Source of the DNA: Anaerolineae bacterium
GTDB taxonomy: Bacteria > Chloroflexota > Anaerolineae > Promineifilales > Promineifilaceae
NCBI GenBank assembly: GCA_023954475.1
Contig: JAMLHW010000017.1
Coordinates: 1 to 64,000 of the forward strand
Direction: 5' to 3'
Length of the DNA stretch: 64,000 nt
This document shows positions 27,965-48,721 of this stretch, in pieces. The notes beneath the pieces were generated by a model. That model was not told the origin of the DNA, made no database searches, and saw nothing but the letters and a program-made list of their open reading frames with translations. Position 1 is the first letter of the stretch. Each line of letters opens with the position of its first letter. Made by a program: the position numbers and the translations under genes.

Positions 27965-28000
27965 GCCGCCGGACCGTTTTGTGATCCGGCGGCTTTTTTT
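27965..28000 (+). terminator. Rho-independent terminator of the aminotransferase gene
   Basis: GCCGCCGGA (27965-27973) pairs with TCCGGCGGC (27985-27993) across an 11-base loop and is followed by seven Ts. It sits 24 bases after the stop codon. Confidence 0.93.
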
Positions 28001-28043
28001 GTGCTATATTGTTAACAAGTCCCTGACAGCAGATGGAACCACA

Positions 28044-29945
28044 ATGAGCGTTGATTTTGATTGGCACATCGAAGAAGAGGACGGGCCGGCACTCCTGCCG
28101 GATGGGCAGCCGCAGCGTAGTTTGCCGTGGGGCTTGTTCGTGTTGTTGCTGGCAGCGATGACGGTTGTCGGTGGCACAGTTGTTGCGTATCGATTGCACC
28201 AGAGCGAGATGCTTTTACGTGCAGAGGTACAGGAGATTCTCGATTTAGCCCAACAAGCAGTTCTGAGCGGTGACGGTGAGCTGTTTTTCTCGTTACAATC
28301 GGCCGAATCGGACTGGTTTTCCGCCCAATTGCGCCCCGAAAATCAGGCGCAGTTCATCGCCGGGCTGACAGTAACCCACGCCGAGCAACACAACGACATC
28401 ATTTGGGCCAATGCCCAATGGCAAACTGCAGACGGAATACGCCAACGCGTCTTTTTCTTCCGGCGCAGCGACGACCGCCTGCAGCAAATCGCGACATCAT
28501 CCCAATTCTGGGGCGAACAACAGACCAAACTCGCCGACTGGGGTTTGCTAAAATTGTCGGAGGCCGATGCCGTCTGGGCAGAAGCGATTCGCAGTTTCGT
28601 CGCCGACGAGTTGGCAAATGCCTGCAATGGCCGGTGTGATGATCACTACCCGCTTATCGTCACCATTCGAGATGACTTCGCCGTCACAGCCGCAGCGCAC
28701 CAACTCGCTGTGCCGTCACCTAGACTAATCGGCCTTACCGTCGATGGCGATCCGTCTCCCCAATTCTGGCAGCGTTTGCAAACTGAAATGATGTCGCTTG
28801 CCGGGCCGGTGACTATTCGCTACGCCATTCCACCACAGCGCGAACAACGCGTAAATTACGAAGCCGCACTGGCGGAATTCAACAATCTACACCCCGAGAT
28901 CACGGTTGAATTGGTCGAAGTAGAACAGTTTCCGGAGGATCCCGCATTGCTGGCAACGTTGGACGGCGCTGCATTTGCGCCTTCGGCAGCGATGATTGCT
29001 GCGGGATCGGTCTTCGACCTCAGCGGCTACGTCAGAACAGATTCCGTTTTCGATCAATCCGATTTTTACGACGCCATCTGGCGTGGTGTGCGTTGGCGCG
29101 ATCGTGTCTGGTTTTTGCCCCAGGCTGCAACGATGCGCCCCGTTTTTTACGATACACGCGCTTATGCTGCAGCTAACCGGTTGCCGCCATCGATGCGTTG
29201 GACGTGGGATGAATTGGCAGCCGATATGGATGCGCTCGTAGCAGCACAGCCACCTGATTCCTGGATCGATGTCGCCTATCTCGATACGACGTTGGACACG
29301 TTGTATGCTTATGCGTCTAATCACGAGCCGGCTTGTCAGACACGCAATCTGGCACCGTGTTTGGCTCCACTTTCGGCCGAAGCGATCACTACCGCCCTCG
29401 TTTGGTATCTGACCAGTACCGCCGATCCGGACCACATGGCCGATTTGACTGACATTCTGGCACCACAACGCGCTCGCGTATTGACCAACTGGCAATCAGC
29501 ACGCCGCCAATCGGCTATCTGGGTCGATGAGCCGGTCTATTACGAACATCGACTACTGCTTCTGCCTCTGGGAGTAACGACATTTCCGGGTACAGATCGA
29601 TTTGACGGCTCAGCGCCGCTCTGGGTGCAAGGCAGTTTTATCAGTGCGTACAGTAAACAGCCACGTGCGGTATGGACATGGCTCAACTTTCTCAGTCACA
29701 CAACGCCGATGCAGCGCTATCGTTTGGTTCCCGCGCGTCGGTCGGTGGCTCACGACTATGCGTATTGGGAGACGTTGCCTCGTGAGTTAGGTGAAGCATT
29801 GCGCACGGCTTTTCCGCTGGCGCGTGCCGTGCGTATCGAGGAACGCGAACTGTTTACGTGGGAACGTCTGGCTCAGGTTGTAGAAAACGGCGTGGATTCG
29901 GCCGAAACCTCACCTCCCCTCTACTGGTTCACAACCAACCCATAA
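28044..29945 (+). CDS. Membrane-tethered extracellular solute-binding-like protein
   Basis: A 633-residue protein with no named family. Residues 1-33 are polar and would be cytoplasmic. Residues about 36-58 (LFVLLLAAMTVVGGTVVAYRL) form one transmembrane helix. An about 110-residue stretch then resembles an NTF2/SnoaL-like fold (weak). From about 245 on, the sequence has the look of a family 1 extracellular solute-binding protein: NYEAALAEFNNLHPEITVEL, WFLPQAATMRPVFYDTRAY, MRWTWDELAADMDAL, and WTWLNFLSHTTPMQRY. Binding proteins are normally lipoproteins beside permeases; this one has a helix anchor and no permease genes. The start ATG at 28044 lies beyond the preceding terminator. Function is unknown; a sensor or tethered receptor is possible. 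Confidence 0.72.
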   Translation: MSVDFDWHIEEEDGPALLPDGQPQRSLPWGLFVLLLAAMTVVGGTVVAYRLHQSEMLLRAEVQEILDLAQQAVLSGDGELFFSLQSAESDWFSAQLRPENQAQFIAGLTVTHAEQHNDIIWANAQWQTADGIRQRVFFFRRSDDRLQQIATSSQFWGEQQTKLADWGLLKLSEADAVWAEAIRSFVADELANACNGRCDDHYPLIVTIRDDFAVTAAAHQLAVPSPRLIGLTVDGDPSPQFWQRLQTEMMSLAGPVTIRYAIPPQREQRVNYEAALAEFNNLHPEITVELVEVEQFPEDPALLATLDGAAFAPSAAMIAAGSVFDLSGYVRTDSVFDQSDFYDAIWRGVRWRDRVWFLPQAATMRPVFYDTRAYAAANRLPPSMRWTWDELAADMDALVAAQPPDSWIDVAYLDTTLDTLYAYASNHEPACQTRNLAPCLAPLSAEAITTALVWYLTSTADPDHMADLTDILAPQRARVLTNWQSARRQSAIWVDEPVYYEHRLLLLPLGVTTFPGTDRFDGSAPLWVQGSFISAYSKQPRAVWTWLNFLSHTTPMQRYRLVPARRSVAHDYAYWETLPRELGEALRTAFPLARAVRIEERELFTWERLAQVVENGVDSAETSPPLYWFTTNP

Positions 29946-30053: not shown

Positions 30054-30821
30054 TCAGTGATTCAAAATCTGTGACAGGAACAACTTGGTGCGCTCGTGCT
30101 GCGGATCATTAAAGAACGGCAGCGGCTCATTCTCTTCTACAATGACACCGCCATCCATAAAGATAACGCGATCAGCCACAGTACGTGCAAAACCCATCTC
30201 ATGCGTTACCGCCAGGATGGTATACCCTTCATGCGCCAGGTCGCGCATCACATCCAGCACTTCCTTGATCATTTCCGGGTCTAGCGCCGACGTCGGCTCA
30301 TCAAACAGCAGAATTTTCGGCTCCATCGCCAATGTCCGTGCAATCGCTACACGTTGCTGCTGACCACCAGAAAGCTGTCCCGGATATTTCTGGGCTTGTT
30401 CAGGAATCCCAACCCGGGTAAGCCATTTCATCGCTACTTCTTCGGCGTGTTCCCGCGACCATTTGCGCACGTGAATCGGTGCCAGTGTCACGTTCTCCAT
30501 CACCGTCAAGTGCGGAAACAAATTGAATTGCTGGAAAACCATGCCTACTTCGCGGCGAATCTCGGCGATATTGCGCACATCGTGGCTCAACGTAATGCCG
30601 TCCACGATAATGTCACCTTCCTGATGTTCTTCCAACCGATTGATGCAGCGGATAAACGTCGATTTTCCGGAACCGGACGGCCCTAAAATCACGATGACCT
30701 CGCCACTGCTCACTTCGAGATCGATGCCTTTTAGTACGTGAAAATCACCATACCATTTGTTGACATTGTGACAACTGATGATTTTGCTGTAATCTGTTGC
30801 GGGTAACGTAACCGTCATATT
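30054..30821 (-). CDS. aapP: Amino-acid ABC transporter ATP-binding protein
   Basis: A 255-residue ATPase subunit. Walker A is [10 protein letters not shown], the Q-loop follows, the signature is LSGGQQQR, Walker B is [12 protein letters not shown], and the switch His is in [14 protein letters not shown]. These are typical of GlnQ/AapP proteins for polar amino acids. The ATG at 30821 follows AAGGAG and lies inside a slightly longer reading frame whose own start overlaps that site. It is the last gene of the aapJQMP-like operon, 47 bases after aapM. Confidence 0.95.
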
Positions 30822-30868
30822 CGTTTCTCCTTTTATCATCCACGAAGAATGTCGTGCATAGGATACAC

Positions 30869-32410
30869 CTAACGCTCACCAACGCCCATGCGCCGTTCCA
30901 GACGACGACTGTACCAGGCCATGAGGGCACTGCCGACAAAGTAAATGACGGCGATAAACACATACGGGGCGCGCCGTACACCCAGCCAATCTGGTTGCGC
31001 CGAGATCAGGTTGGCGACACCCAGCAATTCGATCAGACCAACAATAGCGACCAGTGTCGTGTCCTTAAACAAGCTTATAAACTGACCGACAATGGCCGGA
31101 ATTACCGCACGCAGCGCCTGTGGCAGCACAATGAGCCGATATTTTTTGTAGGTATTTAACCCGACGGCGTCAGCAGCCTCATATTGACCTTTGTTTAGCG
31201 ATTGCAGACCACCGCGCACGTTTTCGGCCAGGTAAGCGGCAGCGAACAGCGCCGCAGCAACCATGACGCGCCAGGTTGAAAGAATCTCAGTGCCTGGAGG
31301 CAGCAAAATCGGGAACAATATGATCGACATGAACAAAACAGTGATCAGAGGCACGCCACGGATTACTTCTATGTAAACCGTACTGGCTAATGCAACCACA
31401 TTACCCTGGTAGTAGCGCTGGAACAAGTACGCTATCAACAGAAGTAGCAGTGGCCAAAGTGCAATGAGTTGTGCTCCCGTTGTTTGCGCTTCAGCCAAAG
31501 CCGGAATTGAACGGGTTACGAAGAAGTACAGCGCAATCAAGCCCAGTGCGCCGTAGGTCAGCCACGCCGGAATGCCCGTTATCTTACTCCTGCGCCCCAG
31601 AGCTAACAGTAATCCCAAAGGGAACGAAGCGACAATCGCAAACACGGCGATGATGAGTGTCAATAGCAAACCGCCCCAGGCAATATCAGGGTTGAGATAA
31701 GGAATTGGTCCTGCCAAAAAACCAAAAAGACCATCGCTCTTAAATCCGCGTAACAGGAAAAATACGACAAACGGTGTCAGTATCCACAATGTGGTCAAAA
31801 CGCGGCGAATGCGTGAACGGCGGAATACTTCTTTGCGGAAAACGTACAGGCTGGGAATCAACAGAATGACATTCCACAACAGGATCGCGAACAAACGCCA
31901 ATCTTGATCAGTCGGCCAGCGGAAAACCATCAAGTTGCGGAAGTTGTCGATGACGGCACCCCAGGCAGCGCCTTCTTTACCGTCAACGGATTTTCTTTCC
32001 AGCTGTATTTTGGAGACGGTTGGATTGGTTGAAAAACTGGCGCGCACCACAGCCCAATCAAAAAAGCCGATTATGATGAAGGCCAGGATCAACGCCAGCA
32101 ACAGAGAAAGGACTACGTTGGAAAGGGAACCATAAAGATTCGTTTTGAGCCAGAGTGTCATCGGCCGATGGGAGCGTCGCACATCACTAACAGCCGTCCA
32201 TATCACAGACGCAGCCCACACAACGAAAATGATAATGGTGCTGGCAAAATGCTCCTGAAGCTGCCCGATTGCAAACCATATCGTCACCAGCAACAGAATC
32301 AATAACCAGATTGTTTGCAACCAGCTTCGTCGCACATTGTCCAGCCAGTAACGACGTAGATTCAGATTGCGAAAGGCGCTGCCACCAAAACGTGAAGTTG
32401 TACTTTGCAT
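30869..32410 (-). CDS. aapM: General amino-acid ABC transporter permease AapM, extended
   Basis: A 513-residue polytopic membrane protein. The C-terminal about 220 residues are the BPD_transp_1 domain of amino-acid permeases, with [40 protein letters not shown] and the EAA-like [20 protein letters not shown]. Upstream segments match AapM ([17 protein letters not shown]). Two extra hydrophobic segments at the N-terminus (residues about 30-75) make it about 100 residues longer than the Rhizobium protein. AAGGAGG before 32410 makes the ATG there likelier than the Mets upstream, which lie inside or touch the ribosome site. Confidence 0.92.
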
Positions 32411-32423
32411 GCTCATCCCTCCT

Positions 32424-34052
32424 TTACCTTTCAACCAGGGCAATGCGCTTGTTGTACCAGTTGAGCAATGCCGAAATAGACAAACTCAACGTCAAGTACG
32501 CCGCCATGACCATCAGGAATACCTGAATGGCTTGTCCCGATTGATTCAACGTCGTAAACGCAACGGCAAACAAGTCAGGATAACCAACCGCTATCGCCAG
32601 CGACGAGTTCTTGACCAGATTCAAATATTGGCTCGTCAGCGGTGGAATAATAACCCGCATCGCCTGTGGCAAAACAACCAATCGTAAGCGTTGGGACTCA
32701 CTCAGCCCTAAAGCGCGGGCAGCCTCACTCTGTCCCTTAGAGACAGATTGAATACCCGCACGCACAATCTCAGCGATGTAAGCGCCTGTGAATAAAACCA
32801 ATCCAATCAATAATGCAGCAAAGTTAGGTGAAATCTTTATGCCACCTACAAAATTCAATCCCTCGATCTCCGGAATCGAAATTCTGACAGGCCGTTCCAA
32901 AGTCGGCACAATAGCTTGCGCAAAAGGATCTTCTAGAAGCGGTCTCTCGCCTGTCAGAATTACAGTGTCAGCCACATAGATCTCACACTCACCGGCTGCG
33001 TATTTTGCCGTCGCCTGATCGGGTCGTGTACTCCGGTTGACCGTGTAAGGAATATTTAATCTGCGCAATTCAGCCGTGAAATTGACTTCAGAAGCTGATT
33101 CCGAAATCACACAAAGCGTATAAGCGGCTTCGTCAACTTCCTCGCTAGTGAGCTCACCTTCCTCAACCATCAAATCGATTTCATTCAGGTTAGCTGCACC
33201 TAACCGGCGTTCCATATTGTCCGCTAAATCAGTGAAGGCAAGAATGCGCTCCGACTTTGCAATCATGAATGATTGATCCAGTTTGTTACTGTTACTGGCT
33301 ACAAACCAACCAATTATGCTGACCGTGAAGAAGCCAAAGACGACCCAGAATGCACGGTTACTTGCTTTGCCGACGCGTTCTTCACGGCGCCCCAGCAATA
33401 TCCAAATAACAAAAGCCAGGATGATGCCGGCGACAACGAAAGCTAACCATGTAGCGAAGGAGGGCAAAAATACCGGCCCCGGCATGTTGATACCGCGCTG
33501 GCTGAGGTACACAGGCAAATCACCTAGCTGGATGGCGTCCCTAATGGGCGGAAAGAGCAAGATGACGCCAAAGTAAATAAAGAATAGTTGGAGCAGCAAT
33601 GGTGTATTGCGCATCAGGTCAATGTACCATCCGGTAGCCTTGCTCACCAGCCAGTTATCCGATAGTCGCGCAATACCGGCCAATACCCCCAGAATGGTTG
33701 CAAAAATAATCCCCAGGACACCGACCTTGATCGTGTTCATCAAACCGACGAGTAGAGCACGCCCGTAAGTGTCACTCGGATCATAATCAATGACAGATTC
33801 AGAAATATCGAATTGGGAATCCACCTTGAGGAAATTGTAACCACAGGAAAAACTACTGGTTCCGTCAGGACAACGAAAACCACCAAGTCGGCCGAGATTG
33901 TCGGTAACGTTGCCCAGCAACCACATTGCCCCCATGATGACCAGTACGACAAACGCAATTTGTGCAAATATGCCAATGATGCGGATGTCGCGCCAGGGTG
34001 GGACAGATTCCTGACCGCCAGATGGATTGGGAGTCAACTTGGATTCAGCCAT
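32424..34052 (-). CDS. aapQ: General amino-acid ABC transporter permease AapQ with SBP-like insert
   Basis: A 542-residue permease, about 140 residues longer than usual AapQ. The N-terminal part carries LVGLMNTIKVGVLGIIFATI and LMRNTPLLLQLFFIYFG. The C-terminal part carries LFTGAYIAEIVRAGIQSVSK and LPQAMRVIIPPLTSQYLNLV. Between them, residues about 270-390 are a soluble, outward-facing insertion. Residues 314-376 align without gaps to residues 197-259 of the neighbouring binding protein AapJ, 17 of 63 identical by hand, including both Cys and the GxC(E/D)x(Y/F) core. This looks like a binding-protein lobe fragment built into the permease. The operon has normal spacing to both neighbours. Confidence 0.9.
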   Translation of the reverse strand: MAESKLTPNPSGGQESVPPWRDIRIIGIFAQIAFVVLVIMGAMWLLGNVTDNLGRLGGFRCPDGTSSFSCGYNFLKVDSQFDISESVIDYDPSDTYGRALLVGLMNTIKVGVLGIIFATILGVLAGIARLSDNWLVSKATGWYIDLMRNTPLLLQLFFIYFGVILLFPPIRDAIQLGDLPVYLSQRGINMPGPVFLPSFATWLAFVVAGIILAFVIWILLGRREERVGKASNRAFWVVFGFFTVSIIGWFVASNSNKLDQSFMIAKSERILAFTDLADNMERRLGAANLNEIDLMVEEGELTSEEVDEAAYTLCVISESASEVNFTAELRRLNIPYTVNRSTRPDQATAKYAAGECEIYVADTVILTGERPLLEDPFAQAIVPTLERPVRISIPEIEGLNFVGGIKISPNFAALLIGLVLFTGAYIAEIVRAGIQSVSKGQSEAARALGLSESQRLRLVVLPQAMRVIIPPLTSQYLNLVKNSSLAIAVGYPDLFAVAFTTLNQSGQAIQVFLMVMAAYLTLSLSISALLNWYNKRIALVER

Positions 34053-34258: not shown

Positions 34259-35422
34259 TTAACGGAAAGGCGGCGAATAGAGCAAGCCACCTTCTGTGTA
34301 CAGTGAGTTCTGGCCACGCTCAAGATTGAACGGTGTGTCAGGGCCTAGAGAACGATTATAAATCTCTTCGTAATTGCCGACTTGTTTGATTACCTGATAG
34401 CACCAGTCTGCGTCCAGACCCATAAACAGGCCAAGGTCGCCGGTGACACCGAGGACGTTTTGAACAACGGGGTCTTCGCTGCCAAGCATCTCGTCGACGT
34501 TTTCTGATGTGATACCCAATTCCTCGGCCTGGATGGTGCAGTTCACCGTCCACATGACGATGTCGCCCCAATTATTGTCGCCATGCAGCGTCAATGGGCC
34601 AAGTGGTTCTTTGGACATGGATTCTTCGAGGATGACGTGGGCATCGGGTTCAGCAAGCAGAATCTGCTGGGAAACAAGTCCAGATTTGTCAGTTGTGAAG
34701 CCGTCGCATTGGCCGCTGTCATAAGCAGCCAGCGTTTTCGGTGCGTCATCGAATACAACCGGCGTGAAGTTGATGCCGCGTGAGCGGAAGACGTCGGCCA
34801 GATTACGTTCAGTGGTTGTACCGGACTGAACACAGATAGTACCACCATCCAGACCTTCAAAATCGGTAATACCGCTGTCTTTGCGGACCATCATACCCTG
34901 GCCATCGTAGAAGGTGGTCGGCTGGAAGTCGGCACCCAGTTGGGTGTCACGATTAAGGGTCCAGGTTGTGTTGCGGATCAAGACATCGATTTCGCCGGAT
35001 TGCAGCACGGGGAAGCGCTCGTTGGCGGTTGTCGGCCGAATTTCGAATTGGGTTGCATCGCCTAAAACTGCAGCAGCAATCGCTTTACAAAAGTCGATGT
35101 CAAACCCTTCGAACTCGTTGTTGTCCGGGTTGATGTAACCAAAACCAGGTACTGATTGGTTACCGCCACATTTGAGTGTGCCGCGATCACGCACGACTTT
35201 TAGGGTATCCTTGCCACCTTCGGTCACAGTTTGAGCTGCTTCACCGCTATCGGCCGAACCTTCAGCCATCGATTTGGCTTCTTCAAGCTGAGCTTCGAGG
35301 TCGGCAACTTGGGCTTCCAGATCAGCAACTTCCGAGCTGCTGTCACCGCCGCTGCTACAGGCTGCCAGCACGATACCGAGCGCAAGTAAAACGACAAGCA
35401 AAGTAATTCGTTTGATATTCAT
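34259..35422 (-). CDS. aapJ: General amino-acid ABC transporter substrate-binding protein
   Basis: A 387-residue lipoprotein. The signal peptide ends in the lipobox LAAC (Cys22) followed by a Ser/Gly-rich linker. Residues 31-52 form a short coiled coil (EVADLEAQVADLEAQLEEAK). The periplasmic-binding fold begins near residue 75 with GTLKCGGNQSVPGFGYINPD and continues with FEGFDIDFCKAIAAAVLGD, SGEIDVLIRNTTWTLNRD and ICVQSGTTTERNLAD. These are the AapJ/BztA family hallmarks. The coiled coil before the domain is unusual. AAAGGAG precedes the ATG. It is the first gene of the operon. Confidence 0.95.
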   Translation of the reverse strand: MNIKRITLLVVLLALGIVLAACSSGGDSSSEVADLEAQVADLEAQLEEAKSMAEGSADSGEAAQTVTEGGKDTLKVVRDRGTLKCGGNQSVPGFGYINPDNNEFEGFDIDFCKAIAAAVLGDATQFEIRPTTANERFPVLQSGEIDVLIRNTTWTLNRDTQLGADFQPTTFYDGQGMMVRKDSGITDFEGLDGGTICVQSGTTTERNLADVFRSRGINFTPVVFDDAPKTLAAYDSGQCDGFTTDKSGLVSQQILLAEPDAHVILEESMSKEPLGPLTLHGDNNWGDIVMWTVNCTIQAEELGITSENVDEMLGSEDPVVQNVLGVTGDLGLFMGLDADWCYQVIKQVGNYEEIYNRSLGPDTPFNLERGQNSLYTEGGLLYSPPFR

Positions 35423-35922: not shown

Positions 35923-38900
35923 TTACTTTCGGCCGAAGTACCGCCGTTTACGCCATAACACCAACAGCACACTGCTGATGAGCAATAACATGGTCGCAAT
36001 ATACAATTGCGGCATGTCGGCCACATTGGGCTGCGACCGCAACCCGTCCACAGCAGTCGGCTCTTCGACAACAAGAGTTGCGCTATCGGTGTCAGACACT
36101 GTGCCGTCATCTGCTGTCGCATCAAACGGGAACGTCCCATCACTGGGCGGCGTCACGACAAATGACAATGCGCCGGCAAATCCGGCCGGAATCGTCACCG
36201 ACGGTTGCGGTAATGCCGCTACCAACGCCCCGAATGTGGCGCTCAGATCGTATTCAGTCGCAATATTGCCCGTATTGGTCACGACCAACACAAAGGTCAC
36301 CGGTGCAGGGAATGGTATGGTTTTGCTTGGAACCAACCACTCGACATCTACGCCCGGTTCCGCAGTGAAGATCACTGTCTCACGCGCAATGTCTTGCACA
36401 CTTCCGTCCGTCTGCGATGTCGCCAGCACGGTCAATTCATACGCCTGCGGCAGCGCATACGGTACAGGATCAGTCGTGACATTGACTTGTTGTGTTGCAC
36501 CCGGTGCCAGTGACACAGATGACGGCGTGAACGTCGTGCCGCTGACGGCGAAGTAGCCGATGGCGCTCATGTCGTAGGTATCGGCCGAACTGCCGTGATT
36601 GGTTACCTCGACAATGAAGTTGCCGGTATCACTCGGGGCAATCGTCGTCGTGCGCAGCGCCGTGACAAATTCTGCACCTACGCCGAGCGTGTTGATCGTC
36701 GCCGTGGCCGCATCGCTAGCCGTCACAGCAGGCGCAGCATTCGACATCGCCGTCACGCTGACCGGGTAACTTGCGGCAGTCGTGCCGGCAGGGGCAGTGA
36801 CAAAGAGCGCCAATTCGGCCGAATTGAACACACCCGCATTCAAATCAATCGCAGTGACTGTATTGCCGTTGGCGATAAATTCGGCCGACCAGCCGACCGG
36901 GACTACGGCAGACAAATCGGCCGTTTCTTTGTAACTGCCGAGATTGCTCACTATCACTGTGTAAATCAGCGGACTGACAACACCACCTTCCACTGTGTCG
37001 GGCGCGATGTCAATCGCCAGAGCACGGTCGCCGACGACTGTCAGTGAGGCTGTGGCGCTGTCAGACGCATTTGTCGTTACATTGACACCGCTCACCGTGA
37101 AGGGCGCAGTGCCTGCCTCGTATCCGGTCACGGTGACCGGCAAGGTCGCCACGCCGGACGCAGGCAGGAGAGCTGACGGATCAACCGCAATATCGCCGCT
37201 GAATGCGCCTTCCAGATCGATGGTTTGCGGTGTCGCCAAAAGATTGGTCACGGTCAGCGTATAGACAGTGGGCACGCCGGCTAGTGCAGACTGTGTCTCA
37301 GGCGTAATCGCCATTGTGAATGTGTCGATGATGTCCAATTCGGCCGAATCGGAATCGGTTGCACCATTGACCGTGGCCTGCACCGTGAACGGCAGCGTCG
37401 TTACCGCTGCCGTCTCATCCGGCATCACGACCAGCGACAGTTGTGTCGTGCTGTTGGCCGGCACAATGACATTGTCCAACCAATCCACCAACCAACCCTC
37501 CTGCAATCCAACCACGCCGAGATCGAATGTTTCGGCCGAATCATGCACATTCGTCAGCGTCACCGTGTACGTCACTTTGCCGCCCGGCGATACAGTCAAC
37601 GTCTCCGGCGCGACTTCAATGATATGCGCGGCGCTGACATAGAGCGGTGGCAACGTCAGCACATTCGTACCGCTTGGCAGCACGTATGCCACTTCCGTAC
37701 CTTGCGCAACCAGCCGCGTCTCGCCCGGCAACATCTCGTCGAGGCGACTCTGGAATGTGCGCGTGACCACGACATCGGCGTATGTCTGCGTGTAATCCCA
37801 AAGGTAGAGCGGGTCGCTCTCGATGTCGGGATCGATGTTAAACGTATCGCTCAACACCGTCACATCAGTGATGCCGACCGTGTGCGTCAACACAACGTCG
37901 AAGATCGGCAGCACAAAATCGCTCGGGTATTGTGTGTGGTACGTGTTGTGGATTTCCCAACTGTCCAACTCGGTGAACGGGACGCTGAGATCGTCGTTGA
38001 CGTTCGTAATGTGGTACGTCTGCTGGTTCCAGATCGACCGTGCCTCGCCCCACACGCCATCCATACCGACTACGCGTACGCCACTCAATGTCGGCACCAC
38101 AATTTCCGCGTAGCCGTCGTTGTCTACATCGACAATAATCGGGTAATCACTTCCGGTAATGCTGAACAACTCCGGATCATTGAACAAGATCGAGCCGTCT
38201 GCCCCGTTGTAGATGGTGAATCCCTGTTCTTTGCCGTTCCAGGCGACTTCAAAGACGCCGTCCCCGTTGAGATCAAGTACAGTAGCGTTGTTAGCGCTTG
38301 TGCTGTCCTCAGCGATGACATCCCAGAGCAAAGAGCCGTCGGCGTTGAGCGCATATAGCTTACCGAAACGGCCCGGCTCGAACTCGTACTTCATGCCGGT
38401 GATGATTTCGACTTCGCCGTCACCGTCAATATCGGCGACACCAACGCCGCCCGGGAATCCAGGTTCCAGCTCTTTCTGCCACAGAATCGTCCCGTCGTGG
38501 TTGAGCACAGACAGCCAACCGTAATGGGAGATGAGGATTTCAGGGTCCGGATCACCACCCGGCAACATCCCGTCGATGTCGGCGATGGCGTGCGAACCGA
38601 GCAGCCCGTTGTCAAACGTGGGCGTCTGCGGATAGCTGATGGTTGGCGTGATCGATGTTGACCAGAGCAGAGCAGGCGTGCCCAGATTGTAGCTGTAAGC
38701 GTAAACAGTTGACGGCACGCCGTCATCCCATTTACCCCAATCGGCCGAAACGATGTCCAACACGCCGTCACCGTTTAGATCGGCCAACATGGGCGCCGTT
38801 GCCCAGTACGGGAACGCCGTCGACCATGCAATCGAGCCATCCGATTCCAGTACGGCGACCCCGGAATCGTAGTTGATTACAATCTCAGCCTCCGGATCAG

Positions 38901-41900
38901 TGTCCAGATTGCCCAGTGCCGGCGCACCTGTCACATCAGCCCCTTTCAACGTATCGGTGATAATTTTCAACGTGCCATCATGTTCGTAGATGCGCACGTC
39001 CTTGCTGCTCAGTACGACGATTTCACTTTCCGGATCGCCATCGAGTTCACCCAGCGCCGGTGAGCCGATCCACGCCCGGTCGACAGGTGCGCCACCGATG
39101 TCGTCCGTCCACAAAATCGGGTCTCCGTCACCACTGTCGCTGCCGTCACCAGTGTAAACAAACAACTTGCCCCAGATCAGCAACGTGTCGGAACCAAAAA
39201 CCAGTTCCGTCTTGCCGTCATTGTTGATGTCGCCGGATGCGACGCCGCTAACCATGCCAAGACTACCAAAGAGCGGTGCGCCGTTTCCGGCAGCAGCATT
39301 GTCTGACCACTCGACCATCGGCGCATAAGGCAGGTTGGTTGCCGGTGTCGCAAAGCCATCGACGCGCATCGACGCGCCGTTGTCAACGCGGATTTCATGC
39401 ATGCCCGGCCCCAAATCGTTGAAGTGGAAGGCTATCGGCACAGGTGAAAACGCGTACTGCATGTCTACATTGGTGACAAAAACACCATCAATGTAAATAT
39501 TGGCATTGTTGGTATTGTCTCGCGTGAAACCATAGAAAGTGATGCTGTCGCCGAGGAAGGTATGCCAGACGCGGTGATTGGCATTGAACCAGCCGGTCAC
39601 ATAGCGGTCGCCGATGGCATTGTCGTCAAAGTTGCCGTTGAAGCCGAGGAACTCGCCGAAGTGGACGCGCTCTTCCTCGCCGATGTCGCCGGGCCACGGA
39701 TCGATCAGTTCGTCGGCGACTGGGGAAGCGTCCCAGATGTCGACGTAATCGATGGCGACGCGCCCGCTGACGACGGTGATCGACAGCGTATGCGTGCCGG
39801 TGATCAAATCGGTGATGCGCGTAACGGAGAAGGTATCGGTTGCCGTGGTCAGGTCGAATATGCCTTTGCTGACGCCATCGACAAAGATTTCGGCCGAACC
39901 ATTTGTCCCGCCCGTATAGAAGCCAATATTGGCCGCGCTGCCGGTAAACGACAACTCAGCCACATCGCTGGCTGTGCTCGATGCTATCACTTCCTGACTG
40001 CTGGGCGCAGCACCAATTGTGCCGGCGATGAACCAACTCGACGGACGTTGAGGGTAGCTGGCGCCGTTGTATGTCAACTGATTCTCTTCGTAGCGCACCA
40101 GACCGGTGGGTGGCGATGTGTCCTCAACCGGTACCGTAGCCGGCGACTGAATCGTATCGACGCCCACATCGCCAAACTGGGATTGTATTTGCAGCAGATG
40201 TGTGCCTGGCCCAAACCCATCGTATGCCAGTGTTTTGGTCATAAATTCGGCCGACCAGAAATTGAGGCTGTCAACTTCCACGCCATCCACCAATGCTGCT
40301 GCGTGCCGGTCGCCGCCGTCCCAAGTCACCAGCGTGAACTCAACTGAATCACCGGTAAACGGCATCCAGATTGAACGGTCGCCTTCATTGTTCCGCTGGA
40401 ACGTACCATTTGTCGCTGCCGGGTCGCTGCCTTCAAACCAGTTGTCGCTGTAGAAAGCAACATCTTCAGCTTCCTGAGCCGTTGTCGGCAGAGCTGTACC
40501 ATCCCATACGTCGATGTAATCCAGTTCCACGCGACTGCCGCCAGAATTGGGATGCGCTGTACCAGTCACTGTAGCGCTGATCACGTGTGCGCCCGGCGCC
40601 AGCTGATAAACCGCACTGACCGTATCGTTGTCGCGTGTATAGGTATCGAGAGTTTCGACATAGGCGCCGTCGATATAGATATCGACATCTGCACCAAATT
40701 CTGAGGAGAAGAAGCCAATGGCAACGCTCTCTCCGGAAAAATCGAGGCTGAAATCGTCGCCGGTGGTTGTCGTGCGCATCATGCCTACTTCGCTCGCTAT
40801 GGCTGACGTCTGATTGCTGAAGCTGGTTGGAGCGACATCAGCAGGAAAACCGTTGAAACGCAGCGCCGGATCATATTCTTCGTATCGACAATAGCCGGAG
40901 CAAGGCGTGAATACCGTCGCCGGTTCAATGGCGGGAACATGCAGTTGGTCCAACGTTGCCATGCCGCGTTCGGCCTGCGCCAACAGGATGTGCGGCTGAC
41001 CGGCGCTCAGGCCGTCGAATGTGAAGGTGCGACTAATGCCCGTTGCACTTTCAATATCAACCGTTTGCTGTTTTACACCATCGAGCCACAATGTCACTGT
41101 ATCAGCACCACTGTAAGCATATGCCTCATACGTGATTGAGTCGTTGGTGAAGTGGAACCAGATATTGCCGGAGGTCGAACGCACATAGTTACCGTTGGCG
41201 GCAAGACCATCGCTGCGTAAATCCCAGCCGTCACTGTAATGCAGGCGGTCAATGTCGAGGAAATCGGCCTCAAATAAGCCATCCGGTTCCAGTGCGCCGT
41301 CCCATGTCTCGAAGTAATCGAAATAGAGTCGGTTACCGCCGCTGAACGGATTGCTCGTCGGCAGAATCGTCAACGTGACTGTGTGTGAACCTGCACCGAG
41401 GCCAGTGTAGATGCGGTTGATGGGCATATCGACGCGCCGGTAGGTATCGATCGTTTCTTGCGGCACGGCATCGATGGCGATTTCGACCTGACCGCCGAGT
41501 GTATCACTCATCAGGCCGATACTGAGCCAGTCGCCGTCAAACGTATAGGTCATGGTGTCACCAATAGCATCGCCAAGTACCGTGTCGCCGCGACTGGCTT
41601 TGCCGTATACTGTATAGTTCCACGAGGTGGCTGTGGCTGTGTACGGTACGCCATTGTAGAGAATATCGGGATGCCACTCTTCGATACGGGCGATGCCGGT
41701 TTGAACGGGTTCGGTGTAGGCTGCATCGGTAGCAGGTACGGTGATTTTGTCGAGCGTGGCATTGTTCTGATTCGGCCGAATCGAGAACAGATGCAATCCC
41801 GGCCCAAATCCGTCAAACGACAACGTACGCGTCATGATAAACGGCTCGTACAAGTCAATACGGTGCAGATGTTGGCCGTCTACATAGAAATCGGCCGCTC

Positions 41901-44900
41901 CGGCTTGATCATAGTTGAACACATCGATACTGATCGAATCCCCTTCAAACGGGAACCAGACCGTGTCGTCTGTGCTGCGTGCGTACCGCCCGTCGCTGGC
42001 GTTCGTATCATTGCGGAACGTCCAGTTGTTTGTGTACAGCACACCTGTGTCTTCTTGTTCGAACTGTCCGACCGGCAGTGCTGTTCCGTCCCAGGTGTCG
42101 ATAAAGTCGAGCCAGAGATAATCGTTGGACGCTTGCGGATTGGCTGTGCCCGTCACACTGATTGTCAGCGTGTGGGCTACGTTCGGCAGGCTGTTGAAAA
42201 CCAGATCGATCGGCCGTGTTTGGCGGCGATAAAGGTCAAACAACCCTTGTGATACTCCGTCAACAAAGATTTCGGCAATACCGGCGTCTGACTTGCCCAT
42301 CAGTCCCACATTGACCCATGTTCCGGTGAATTCGAATGTAGCTGTCGAGTCGGTCGTATTGGAACGATATGTGTTGCCTTCGGTTGCACCGGTCAGTGCC
42401 CGGCTCGACCAGCCTGTCGTGTAAGTGATGGCAGTTGTGTTACTGGCTTCTGTGCGCGTGTAGCCGGTAAAAGGAGCCAGTTGCGGTATGAACGGTTCGG
42501 AATCGTCGTTTTCGGCCGAACCCCCACTCGTCGCCAACGGTGGGCCTTCCGGCTGTTCACTCACCTCTTCTACCGGCTCGGCGAACAGCTCATGATTCGG
42601 ATCGCTGATGCGTTCGCCAGGCACAAGTTGTGACAAGTCGCCCGCTGCGGACGAGAACATGTCAGCTTCGGTCGGCACAGACTCTTCTGTCGCTATCTCA
42701 GTGGGAATGACAATGTAGTCACGCGGACCGGTCGTTTCCATCTGCGTTACAGCAGGGGCGCTGCCGGGAACAATTGTATCGACGAGGATTTCAGTAGTGA
42801 TTACCGTCGTCACAGTGACCGTTCCCGGCGACACGAGTTGTGGCTGCACGTCGTGTTCGACGCCGAGCGATTGGCCGACGAAAAGATAGTCGTAGTTGGT
42901 TCCAACGGGGATCAGCGTGCCGCCGCTGTCGCGCAGCTCGACGGTAACTGTGTAGACGCCTTCGGCGAAGGGTGATGTATCGGCCGAAAGCAAATCATAT
43001 GTCCGATTCTCACCCTGCAACGTCAGCGGCACCGTGTCGCTAAACACTTCAATACCGTCCTCAACGGAGACGACACTAACGGCAGCGTCGGCGTCGATGG
43101 GAATAAACGCCAGATTGTCGACCGTAATGGCGATGTCCGTGCTGCTGAGGCCGATATCGACAAAGTTGGGATCGACGCTGACGTCGGTGAATGCCAGAAA
43201 GGCATCGACGACGTTAAGTCCGGCGTTGGCTCGCCGCGACACATCGGTACTTAAAGCCACAACATCGGCGCTGAGTGTATAGAGTCCGAGTGCGCCCGGC
43301 GTCGTGTCGAAGGGGAGATCGGCCGATTCGTCCGGCTCAAGCGTCACCATCGTCGTCTGATCGCCGTCGGGCAGCGTCGCCGTGATTTCGTAAGTCGTCG
43401 TCACCGTGCCGGCGTTCGTGACGGTGAGCGAATAGGTCGCCGTATCGCCGAGCAAAATGGCGTCAAAAGACGGGTTCCACGCGACCACCGGGCCGTACAA
43501 GTCGAAGGCGATGGCATCATCGCCGAGTGCGTCGAGCGCCAGACAAAGTGCGTCAAGATCGTTCTGCAGATCGACCGGATCGGTGTGCGTCGCCATGTCG
43601 GCAGCGATGGTACTCAAGTCGGCAGCAGCGGGTAGATCGCTGCCGGTGAGGACGACGTTTGTAATCGCCGCAATGACGGCGTCGCGGGCGTCAAGATCGG
43701 TGAGATCGGCCGAAAACACATTCAAAGTCAGGCCTAATCGTTCCAGCGAAGCGGCCAGAACCGTATCACCCAAACTCTCAATCAGGGCCGCAGCATCAAA
43801 GGCACAGGCTGCTTCGGCCGAAACAATCAACACGGTCGCATACGTGCGCGGTGCATAACCGCTACCCGCGCTTTCGGCCACGACGAGGTACCCCTGCCCC
43901 ACTGTCGCGCCCGTCGTGTCGATGGAAACCGTTTCCGTGTGCGTCGTCCCGACAGCCAGCGAGCCGGTCGAGAGCGCTGCGGGAGACGCCGACAGTGTGT
44001 CGGATATCAGCGTACCAGGGAAGTACAAATTGCCGAAAACGGCCATATCTACGTCAAAGCTACCCGCTGTGTTGCCGACATTGGTCGCAGTCAACTCGAG
44101 ATCGATAACGGTATCAGGCCCGGTGTAGCGTAATTGCGGACCGAGCTGCAAATAGGGGAAAGCGACTGACGGCATGGTGAAGCCTATCGATTGGCTGTCG
44201 CTAATGCTGCCGTTGTCGTTTGCCGTGGCCGTCACATCGATGCTGAAAGTCGTACCCGGCGCGGGCACTGTGCCGTCGTCGGGCTGGATGTAGAAGCCGA
44301 GTTGACCAACTTCGCCCGCCACCAGTGACAGCGTTGTGCTGGTCGCGCCGCCTGCGCCGCTGAGGATCAGCCAGCCGGCAGGTACGTTGGCGACATCGAC
44401 CGTGAATTCGCGCGAAATGGTCGACGTGTTGGTGATGAAGACGGTGTAGGCAGCGTCGGGAATGTCAGCACGTCCGTCGTTGGTCTGACCGAACGGCTCC
44501 ACTGCCGTGCGCAGGTAGTCGTCGGCGGCGCTGAGGACATCGCCCATAGGCACAGTGACAGGGCTGTCCGGCACCACTGCCAGCGCGACGCCATCCACGG
44601 CTGTCGTTGTGACATTGAAAACTGCCGTCGCAAACGCATTGTCAACTGTGGTCGAATGCGCTGTGACCAAAATCGGATAATCGCCGGGCGTCGCGCCTTG
44701 CGGCGGCGTCACGGTCGCTGTGCCGCTTGTATCCAGTTCTATTGTCCAGTCGAGCGGACCTTGCACGGTGACGGCATAATCGTCAGCATAGTTGGCGAAG
44801 AAATCGACGTTGAACATGACCGGTGTTCCCGGTGTGGTTGTCGTAGTTGTCGGGACGGTGCTGAGGGTAAAGAAATCGGCCGAACCGTCAAACCCGATCT

Positions 44901-47900
44901 GATCGGCATCGGGCACAAACGGATTGAGGTAAATATCCCCGTCAAATGTCGTGAAGGCGATACCGCCAGTGACATCGATCACGTTGCCCGTGACAGTCAA
45001 CGTACCGCCGCCCGGGCCTACCGTTATTTCTGCGGCGGAAACAGTCCCATCGCCTTCTGTTGCGAAATTGGGCACGATACCGGTGCCGCTGCCGCTGATG
45101 GCCGTGTTGCCGGTGACGGCTAGCGTCAATGTACCGGTGTAGGTGTTTGCGCCGTCAACGACGACTTCGGCCGATTCCAGAGCAATCGTATACGGTTGTG
45201 TGGCGCTCAAGTCGGCCGAATAGCTGTCCCAAAGCGCACCGCCGCCCAAATCAGGCAGGGCAGTGGCGTAATAACCGCTGTGCCCGTCGGCAGTCAGGGT
45301 CAAGCTGACCGGTGCAGTTTGGATAACACCAATTGCGTTCTCAACCACAACAGAACCGGAGTCGAGCAATGTGCCCATCTCATCGCGCACATCGGCCGAA
45401 TTGGCTGTCAGCATATCAAACGCAACAGACTGATCCGCATTGATCGTCCAATCCAATACCGTTGAGCCGCTGATCGCCAGTGATTGGGCACTGACGTTGG
45501 CAGTGATGATGTCATCGACCGTATCGGCGCTGTGTGTCACCGTTTGCACGGCAGACGGGTAGATCACAGCCGGTTCACTGTTGTAAAGAGCGCCCGGCAA
45601 CGGCGTCTGTGGCGCAGCTTGCGCCAACGAGAGCAAAACGCCCGGCAGCGCCAGCGCAATGTCGGAGCATTCAGCGGCGGCATTGGCACTGCACGCGGCG
45701 ACATATTGGGAAGTCGAAGCGGCTAACGACTGCACGATTACGGCATAGGCTGCCGCAGGCGGTGCCTGCAGGGGATCGTAGTGACAGGACGGACATGGCC
45801 CTGGCGGTGGTGGTGGTGGAGGCGGTGGTGGTGGCGGAGGCGGTGGTGGTGGCGGAGGAGGTGGTGGCGGTGAACCGCTACCGGTCAGCGTATTGGCGAT
45901 AAAATCGTACAAGTCGCTACCTGCTTTGCCGAAGAAACCGGCGGCAAAGGCGAGCGCAATCCATGTGAGAATGGCTTTGTATTCGATGGCCGTAGCAGCA
46001 TAAGCGCCATCTTCGGTGACAAAGGCAGCGTAACCGGTTGGGTCGATCTCAATCCAGCCAATCCTGGCCTCGCCTTCGCTGACGACCATGCTTTCGGGAA
46101 CCATGACGATGTTACCGGCTTGCGTGGAGGCGAGAATGCGTGCTTTGGCTTCGGCCGAAATCGAAAGCCCATCGAGAATAGAGGTTGCCCCATCTGCCAC
46201 GAGAACCAGTTCAATATCTTGGTCAATCGCTTCCTGAACAATGCTCAAACCAGACTCAACCTGGTCAAAAACCCCGTTGAGCCACTCATATTCGACAATT
46301 TTATCCTGCAAAGACGAAAGCAGAGCCGCCGAGTAAGCCGCATCAGTTGCCTGTCCTGGGGCAGCGACATAACGGCGACGCATATTGAGCAATTCGATTG
46401 ATGTGCGCAACACGTCGTCTGTGTTGACATTGCCCTGCAAGATGAGTTGGGGACGCGCCGGATACGCCTTGACCAACAGGCGATTGCTTTCAATCGCCTC
46501 CTTGCGTCCGTTGAGCCGGAACAAATACTCGGCCAGATTAAACGCCAGACTCAACGATTGTTGTTCAACGATATAGGGCAAACGCTCAGTCGTGAAAATG
46601 GTTACAGCTTCACTGTCTTCTTCGTCTATGGCAGCCTGTTCATTGAAAATCACGCCGATTTCAGGCGATCGTTGGTTGATTAGCGAACGCAAATCCTGGA
46701 CGTAGCGCGATGGCGTTTTACTGTGCGTAACGACCTGCAACTGAAATACATCGAGCGGCGTGAAGAGTGGATCATCGGTGTCGCCGCGATTGGAAGCGAC
46801 ATCTACCATGACCTCGCCGTCTATGTTGCGTGCTTCCGGCCCGATCAAATCGACCAGCGCACGCTGGTACGACTCCGATGTGCCGTCCGGCGCAGTCGAT
46901 TCGACGATGATCCACGCCGCAGTCACAAACACGTTGCCGATACCGCCGCCAAAGTTACTGAACACATCTTGATACGTGTCGCCCATCAACGTGCGCTCGC
47001 CGTTGCCGATGGTCAAATGCGGCGTGTAATCGTGAATCACAGTGGTGAAAACGAGGCCGCCTTCACCGGTGGAATTGACCAAATGACCCAATGTAACCGC
47101 TTTTCCGGTCAGTTCGACGCTGTTTAGCGTTTCATCGAGCGGTGTAATTTTGGGAAAGGAGTCAAGCGAGGCGGCAAACGCATTGTACTGCTCGACGAGC
47201 AACTGCACGTTCACCTTGTGCCGTTCGCTGTCTGGAATCTCGGCATAGGTATTCGTTGCCGTTGTCTTTGTGTCGCCCGGATTGGTGCCTGCAAAAGACG
47301 GGTCTAGGGCAGTCCAGACGCCGCTGATGTTGGCTTCAACCCACCAATGGTCGGTCGCATCCGCCAACAATTCAGCATCGTCGGCAGGGTTGGCGGTGTC
47401 GGCACCGGGCGTGATATGGCCCAATTTGCGTGATTCTTCCGGGAACATCGACAGGATCAACGTCTGTGCATCGGGCGCTGCCAGCGTGCCGCGTGCATAA
47501 CGGGCCGGTATGCCGTTTGACCGCAACATGGCAATGAGCAAACTCGATTGGTCAACGCTGTTGCCTGCCTGGCTCCACAATGTGCCACGTGTACCGCGCA
47601 ACGACCCGGCGTAGGTATCATAGTCGAGAGATTGGACGTAGCGGAACAAGTCGACGGGATCGCCGCCAATCTGGGCAGCCTGGAAAAGCATATCGTCATC
47701 ATAGATATCGGCATCCGGCGTCCAGATGAGGTAAGCGGACAACGCGTCAGGCGACAGGGTTATTGGCGCAGCTTGTCCGGAGACGCCGCGACCCAGCCAC
47801 GTTCCATGCACCGTTGCGCCACTGTCGAATTCGGTCAACGCAGCGACAGTTCCCGGCACGTCTAGTGTGACGGTGGCGGTAATTGATGTGGCCGGCGGGA

Positions 47901-48429: not shown

Positions 48430-48721
48430 CAAGGCCTCCTGTGTGTGTGCAAACGTGAGCAATTCATTGAGCGCAACTCGGCGTTGCTACTCAGGCGCAA
48501 TCCGAATATGGAAGTTTTAGCAGCGATATGTTGAGAGACAATCTCTCCGACATGCCGTTACATGTCGGGAACAAACCACCAGCGGATGGATTGAAGCATA
48601 ATCCCACCGCCTAAAATCCAACGCATTTTGGCAAATTGCGGCTGTTTTTTCAACACATTCGGCAAAATTGCATTGCGCCTCGAGACGACTAATCCGGCAC
48701 AAGATGTGTTAAGATCGAGCT

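Follow-up and report, generated by a model that had tools for sequence, protein, structure and literature searches.

We found an aap operon with an enlarged permease gene in a window of 64,000 nucleotides from an Anaerolineae bacterium of the Promineifilaceae (assembly GCA_023954475.1, 5.1-Mb genome; contig JAMLHW010000017.1, positions 1-64,000). The genes follow the order J-Q-M-P, which is also found in the operons of relatives, and are listed with the other features of the locus in Table 1. AapQ qualifies as a permease of this type by its HEQRo_perm_3TM and BPD_transp_1 matches, its EAA motif (EAARALGL) and its place in an aapJQMP operon. A gene adjoining the operon in convergent orientation encodes a 654-aa protein with an SBP_bac_1 domain (residues 293-445) behind a probable membrane anchor. 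Also encoded in the window is a protein of 4179 aa that is probably located at the surface; it has transglutaminase-like, FG-GAP and esterase-N-terminal domains, a proline run and a C-terminal membrane anchor.

Table 1. Features of the window (residue numbers are those of AapQ unless AapJ is named)
Feature	Position	Strand	Description
Gene for 654-aa protein	27981..29945	+	
aapP	30054..30839	-	261 aa; transporter ATPase
aapM	30869..32443	-	524 aa; partner permease, also enlarged
aapQ	32424..34052	-	542 aa; permease subunit with inserted domain; NCBIfam HEQRo_perm_3TM, Pfam BPD_transp_1
Insertion relative to insert-free AapQ	32892..33293	-	Residues about 254-387
Predicted binding-protein lobe-2 domain	32895..33278	-	Residues 259-386; β-α-β-α-β-α-β core
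Ungapped homologous core	32907..33119	-	Residues 312-382 against AapJ 195-265; BLASTP 20/71 identities, E 7e-6
Segment first aligned with AapJ	32925..33113	-	Residues 314-376 against AapJ 197-259
Cys356	32985..32987	-	Second conserved Cys; invariant in the inserts and the compared AapJ
Cys314	33111..33113	-	Invariant in 36 inserts and in Chloroflexota and Rhodobacterales AapJ
Extra helices in the lobe	33126..33236	-	Residues 273-309; longer in Chloroflexota than in AapJ or Rhodobacterales inserts
Small second extracytoplasmic loop of AapQ	about 33837..33881	-	Residues 58-72
aapJ	34259..35422	-	387 aa; lipid-anchored binding protein, both lobes intact; TIGR01096, E 2e-51; lipobox LAAC
Insert-profile match within AapJ lobe 2	34625..34840	-	E 7.4e-10
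Gene for 4179-aa protein	35923..48462	-	

The initial annotation of this DNA had singled out AapQ as unusually long, and the length comparison agrees: the protein has 542 aa, against 380-450 aa for almost all other AapQ. The extra residues form a single insertion, whose bounds were taken from aligning 37 AapQ with the insert and 13 without it. It lies between a membrane helix ending in IGWF(V)A and a short strand ahead of the sequence (E/L)G-N-F-x-G-G, a site at which insert-free AapQ have a short linker of about ten residues. Matches to AapQ at the order and class level stop at residues 251-255 and restart at residues 385-391. The flanking transmembrane segments are residues 233-255, preceded by the basic stretch RREERVGKASNR, and residues 409-436, followed by the cytoplasmic EAA motif. 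The EAA motif contacts the ATPase, and AapJ docks on the outer side. The basic stretch before the first segment and the EAA motif after the second indicate that the insert faces outside, where it had been placed at first reading, and its two invariant cysteines are compatible with an oxidising location. An artefact of assembly or of a single genome is excluded, because the frame is open across the insert in nearly all of the 40 genomes of the family that carry it.

The insert is homologous to AapJ, the binding protein of the same operon. The stretch that the initial annotation had aligned by hand does match without a gap, with exactly 17 identities in 63 residues and both cysteines included; the homology was correctly seen, but its extent was underestimated, as the homologous unit is a whole lobe of about residues 259-386. 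The local alignment of the insert with AapJ scores 74, whereas shuffled sequences average 31.8 (z 8.9; none of 2000 shuffles scores as high); for 34 relatives, each compared with its own AapJ, the median z is 8.75. A profile of the insert built from 36 related AapQ has one significant relative in the PDB, 4z9n (E 1.3e-7), a binding protein of the AapJ type from Brucella ovis. When extended by its flanks and run against the whole genome, the profile finds two places only, AapQ and the same-operon AapJ. Chance similarity is excluded by the shuffles, the profile and this search of the bacterium's own genome, and on sequence homology the insert belongs with lobe 2 of the Type F (SBP_bac_3) proteins of the AapJ type.

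Matches to the insert profile at E<=1e-9 occur in 118 of 385 Alphaproteobacteria genomes, mostly in frames of binding-protein size, the AapQ of one genome (G098) being an exception; the long frames that were checked are AapJ. Long-frame matches in G863, G780, G841, G896, G648 and two Bacillota were considered as further insert-bearing AapQ and rejected, since all of them are AapJ; the AapQ adjoining them lack the insert (no AapQ was seen beside that of G780). The suspected relationship to binding proteins was recovered with the insert profile, through 4z9n and the AapJ-sized proteins of Alphaproteobacteria, but not with a single-sequence Pfam scan: SBP_bac_3 (PF00497) gave no match above its gathering score, and no SBP family was detected in the 36 insert-bearing AapQ. 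Ordinary annotation consequently misses the lobe.

AlphaFold2 predicts a confident fold for this region. The insert has a pLDDT above 90 over most of its length in the model of AapQ, and a mean pLDDT of 90.0 when modelled alone. Residues 259-386 of the predicted model superpose on lobe 2 of 4z9n (Z 14.9, 1.7 Å, 97 residues) and also on residues 111-207, that is lobe 2, of the glutamate/aspartate-binding protein DEBP/GltI (2vha); the isolated domain model gives the same structural match as the domain within AapQ. The lobe also has extra helices at residues 273-309, which AapJ and the Rhodobacterales inserts described below lack. Because the superposition covers all of lobe 2, the insert is a whole lobe in these models, and the 'half-lobe piece' first suggested holds as to binding-protein origin but not as to size; structure prediction of AapQ alone thus bears out a binding-protein fold, and with the profile match neither of the outcomes named as refuting the initial reading has occurred. 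By the models, then, the AapQ insert is a complete binding-protein lobe 2 in an extracytoplasmic loop, its membership in that fold resting on prediction only.

Proteins of the 4z9n and 2vha type (AapJ and general L-amino-acid binding proteins) are closest to the insert by both sequence and structure, and share with it the lobe 2 fold, two cysteines and a core of E-x-N and G-x-C. Scaffold residues (E, N, R and G) are largely kept, and Cys, P, R and E positions are invariant across 36 inserts; a Cys314-Cys356 disulfide is probable, by inference. In contrast to AapJ-type proteins, the insert has neither lobe 1 nor a hinge, has lost the pocket motifs and is embedded in a permease loop: only lobe 2 of the two-lobed clamp is present, and the chain re-enters the membrane where AapJ continues with SKEPLGP. 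The motifs G-T-T-T and T-x-D-x-S, known to line the ligand pocket in this binding-protein family, vary little or not at all in AapJ. In the 38 Chloroflexota inserts they are replaced, the first by D/G-S/A-P/A-S and the second by V/A-x-S/P-x-A, and the hinge-side SKEPLGP becomes ExP. The Chloroflexota inserts therefore do not qualify as ligand clamps by these contact motifs. Judged from sequence, the insert is a binding-protein fold without a recognisable ligand pocket, and the loss of the contact residues implies that the lobe would no longer form half of a working clamp. Where pairs were measurable, dN/dS is 0.11-0.22 for the insert and 0.01-0.09 for the rest of AapQ. The rate of evolution of the insert is thus at least double that of the remaining protein, and the insert is under purifying selection.

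Within the family to which the bacterium of the window belongs, 40 of 52 genomes have an insert-bearing AapQ; the frame is interrupted by a stop in one of the 40 (G049), and a few are cut short at contig ends. Two family members (G008 and G027) have insert-free AapQ of 390 and 398 aa. Among 400 genomes drawn across the Chloroflexota, 58 have a clear AapQ match; the insert is present in three, all members of the family, and absent from the remaining 55. Other AapQ of Chloroflexota and Pseudomonadota share the permease sequence and the J-Q-M-P operon but have the short linker and no insert. A complete AapJ with a lipobox is encoded beside the insert-bearing AapQ, and the insert is thus no replacement for AapJ. 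A small second extracytoplasmic loop with two invariant cysteines (F-x-C-x-D-G-T...C; residues 58-72) is also seen in the insert-bearing AapQ of the family, and is absent from insert-free AapQ and from L071 and L073.

The partner permease differs in length between the two kinds of operon. AapM has 500-875 aa in the insert-bearing Chloroflexota operons, against mostly about 380-425 aa in insert-free ones, and 403 and 419 aa in the two family genomes with insert-free AapQ. Enlarged AapM, in the window as in the relatives L067, L060, L061, L063 and L065, carry additional N-terminal and internal membrane segments; one membrane block of L067 AapM is apparently repeated in tandem, and AapM of some genera have a cysteine-rich outside loop (YCF...CF...FCFD...CF). 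A second binding-protein insert in AapM was considered and rejected, as by inspection the enlargement consists of extra membrane segments and, in some genera, the cysteine-rich loop. A Pfam scan of the window AapM gave no binding-protein match; the cysteine-rich loop of relatives was outside its scope.

The insert is not confined to Chloroflexota. In some Rhodobacterales, among them those of the Wenxinia/Limimaricola type, AapQ has about 509-596 aa and is interrupted at the same site by an insert, which most members of that order lack. When a profile is made from four of the Rhodobacterales inserts alone, 4z9n is again the one convincing match in the PDB (E 7.6e-5); the Rhodobacterales inserts partly retain a GTT-like motif. 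AapM is of ordinary length for the group (432-438 aa) in the insert-bearing Rhodobacterales of the L208-L211 type. Two further Rhodobacterales AapQ have unusual loops: that of L212 (G186; 596 aa, AapM 663 aa) combines a lobe-like core with a long charged helical stretch, and that of L213 (G111; 686 aa, AapM 658 aa) has an added, apparently membrane-spanning segment. In a permease tree from which the insert was left out, the Chloroflexota AapQ that carry it make up a single clade (support 0.995) and the Rhodobacterales cases are nested within Rhodobacterales AapQ, among insert-free ones; a lobe of this kind is thus present in at least two lineages of the permease. A second tree, of the lobes and based on 100 columns, has the inserts clustering and joining among Chloroflexota AapJ (ultrafast bootstrap 96 for the larger group). 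With long branches and so few columns, this tree does not decide whether the Rhodobacterales inserts arose separately from the AapJ of that order or were acquired by transfer. No insert-bearing AapQ was detected in 274 Gammaproteobacteria and 249 Bacillota genomes at the thresholds applied (E<=1e-12 and E<=1e-9), although a more divergent insert could have escaped.

Two known kinds of importer resemble this arrangement in part. GlnPQ-type importers carry complete two-lobed, ligand-binding domains N-terminal to the membrane part (PMC8025302). As in GlnPQ, a binding-protein sequence on the extracytoplasmic side of AapQ is covalently joined to an amino-acid permease; AapQ differs in having one pocket-less lobe in an internal loop, plus a separate full AapJ, and does not meet the GlnPQ-type layout of a complete domain at the permease N-terminus. 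To our knowledge, the P2 region of MalF is not derived from a binding protein. It is labelled as an extracytoplasmic loop in PMC8386196, and work cited in PMC3328499 has it interacting with MalE through the cycle. MalF P2 and the AapQ lobe are alike in being a folded domain in the extracytoplasmic loop of one permease subunit, and the role we propose is analogous; only the AapQ domain is a binding-protein lobe. Precedents thus exist for binding domains joined to the end of a permease (GlnPQ) and for extracytoplasmic loops of unrelated origin (MalF P2). We found no description of a pocket-less single binding-protein lobe inside a permease loop in the literature searched, in which subscription journals were little covered.

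We tentatively propose that the lobe is an ancillary docking or gating element for AapJ, a reading that may well be right and that we put forward without firm confidence. A copy of an AapJ-type lobe 2 would have been gained in the extracytoplasmic loop of AapQ, ahead of the EAA-carrying helices, and would have kept its fold and two cysteines while losing the ligand-contact residues. Sitting beside the docking surface of AapJ, it would bind or orient the lipid-anchored protein, and might hold it at the permease or gate productive docking, like the MalF P2 loop. What the domain is, how far it reaches and that it lies in the loop are established, as are the loss of the pocket motifs, purifying selection and retention across the family; contact with AapJ and an effect on transport are inferred, by analogy. 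The best reading of a ligand-blind copy of a docking lobe, placed beside the dock and maintained by selection, is that it may bind, orient or gate AapJ. Weighing for this role are retention in 40 of 52 genomes, the complete neighbouring AapJ and the second lineage with a lobe at the same site; against it, the faster evolution points to weaker constraint than expected of a tight interface, and many related transporters work without the lobe.

A role of the lobe without AapJ contact may also be considered and is not excluded, and the chief alternatives are a purely structural role and a competitive cap. As a structural element, the lobe could serve assembly, stability or envelope spacing without contacting AapJ specifically, and might pack against the extra membrane segments of the enlarged AapM. 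The coincidence of insert and long AapM in Chloroflexota, with short AapM in the two insert-free family genomes, speaks for this, as does the only moderate constraint on the lobe; the ordinary AapM of the L208-L211-type Rhodobacterales does not fit, and we consider such a role unlikely. An autoinhibitory or competitive cap also seems improbable to us: the lobe would mimic AapJ lobe 2 and fill its dock until loaded AapJ displaces it, which could lower futile ATP use or set a threshold. Descent from a lobe that docks on such permeases, the covalent position next to the dock and the retention of the scaffold after loss of the pocket all suit a cap, but the loop connection may be too short for the dock, no model places the lobe in it, and the dock residues of AapJ are unmapped.

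Little remains to support a lobe that still senses ligand, alone or paired with lobe 1 of AapJ or a second copy, in a regulation like trans-inhibition. Its fold is complete, and the GTT-like motif partly survives in Rhodobacterales; yet the Chloroflexota inserts have other residues in place of the pocket motifs that are invariant in AapJ, and a single lobe has no other half of the clamp, so that we judge sensing very improbable. Least credible of all is the view that the lobe has no function and is decaying after a gene fusion or duplication. Faster evolution than the rest of AapQ and the stop in G049 could be taken as decay, but dN/dS stays well below 1, invariant residues persist across the 36 sequences, the lobe is kept in 40 genomes and it recurs in a second lineage.

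Returning to docking or gating, it is possible, though rather doubtful, that two separate permease lineages (Anaerolineae and Rhodobacterales) each acquired, at the same AapQ loop, a lobe of the AapJ kind that has become ligand-blind and, as part of the permease, adjusts the delivery of AapJ by acting as a dock or competitor. The lobe is invisible to Pfam, and the present annotation of these genomes overlooks it. A permease with one pocket-erased lobe links end-fused binding proteins and unrelated docking loops, and the AapQ lobe offers a natural system in which to ask what a binding-protein lobe does in transport besides holding ligand. If the two-lineage reading is true, a dock or competitor made from an AapJ lobe would be a new way to regulate type I importers.
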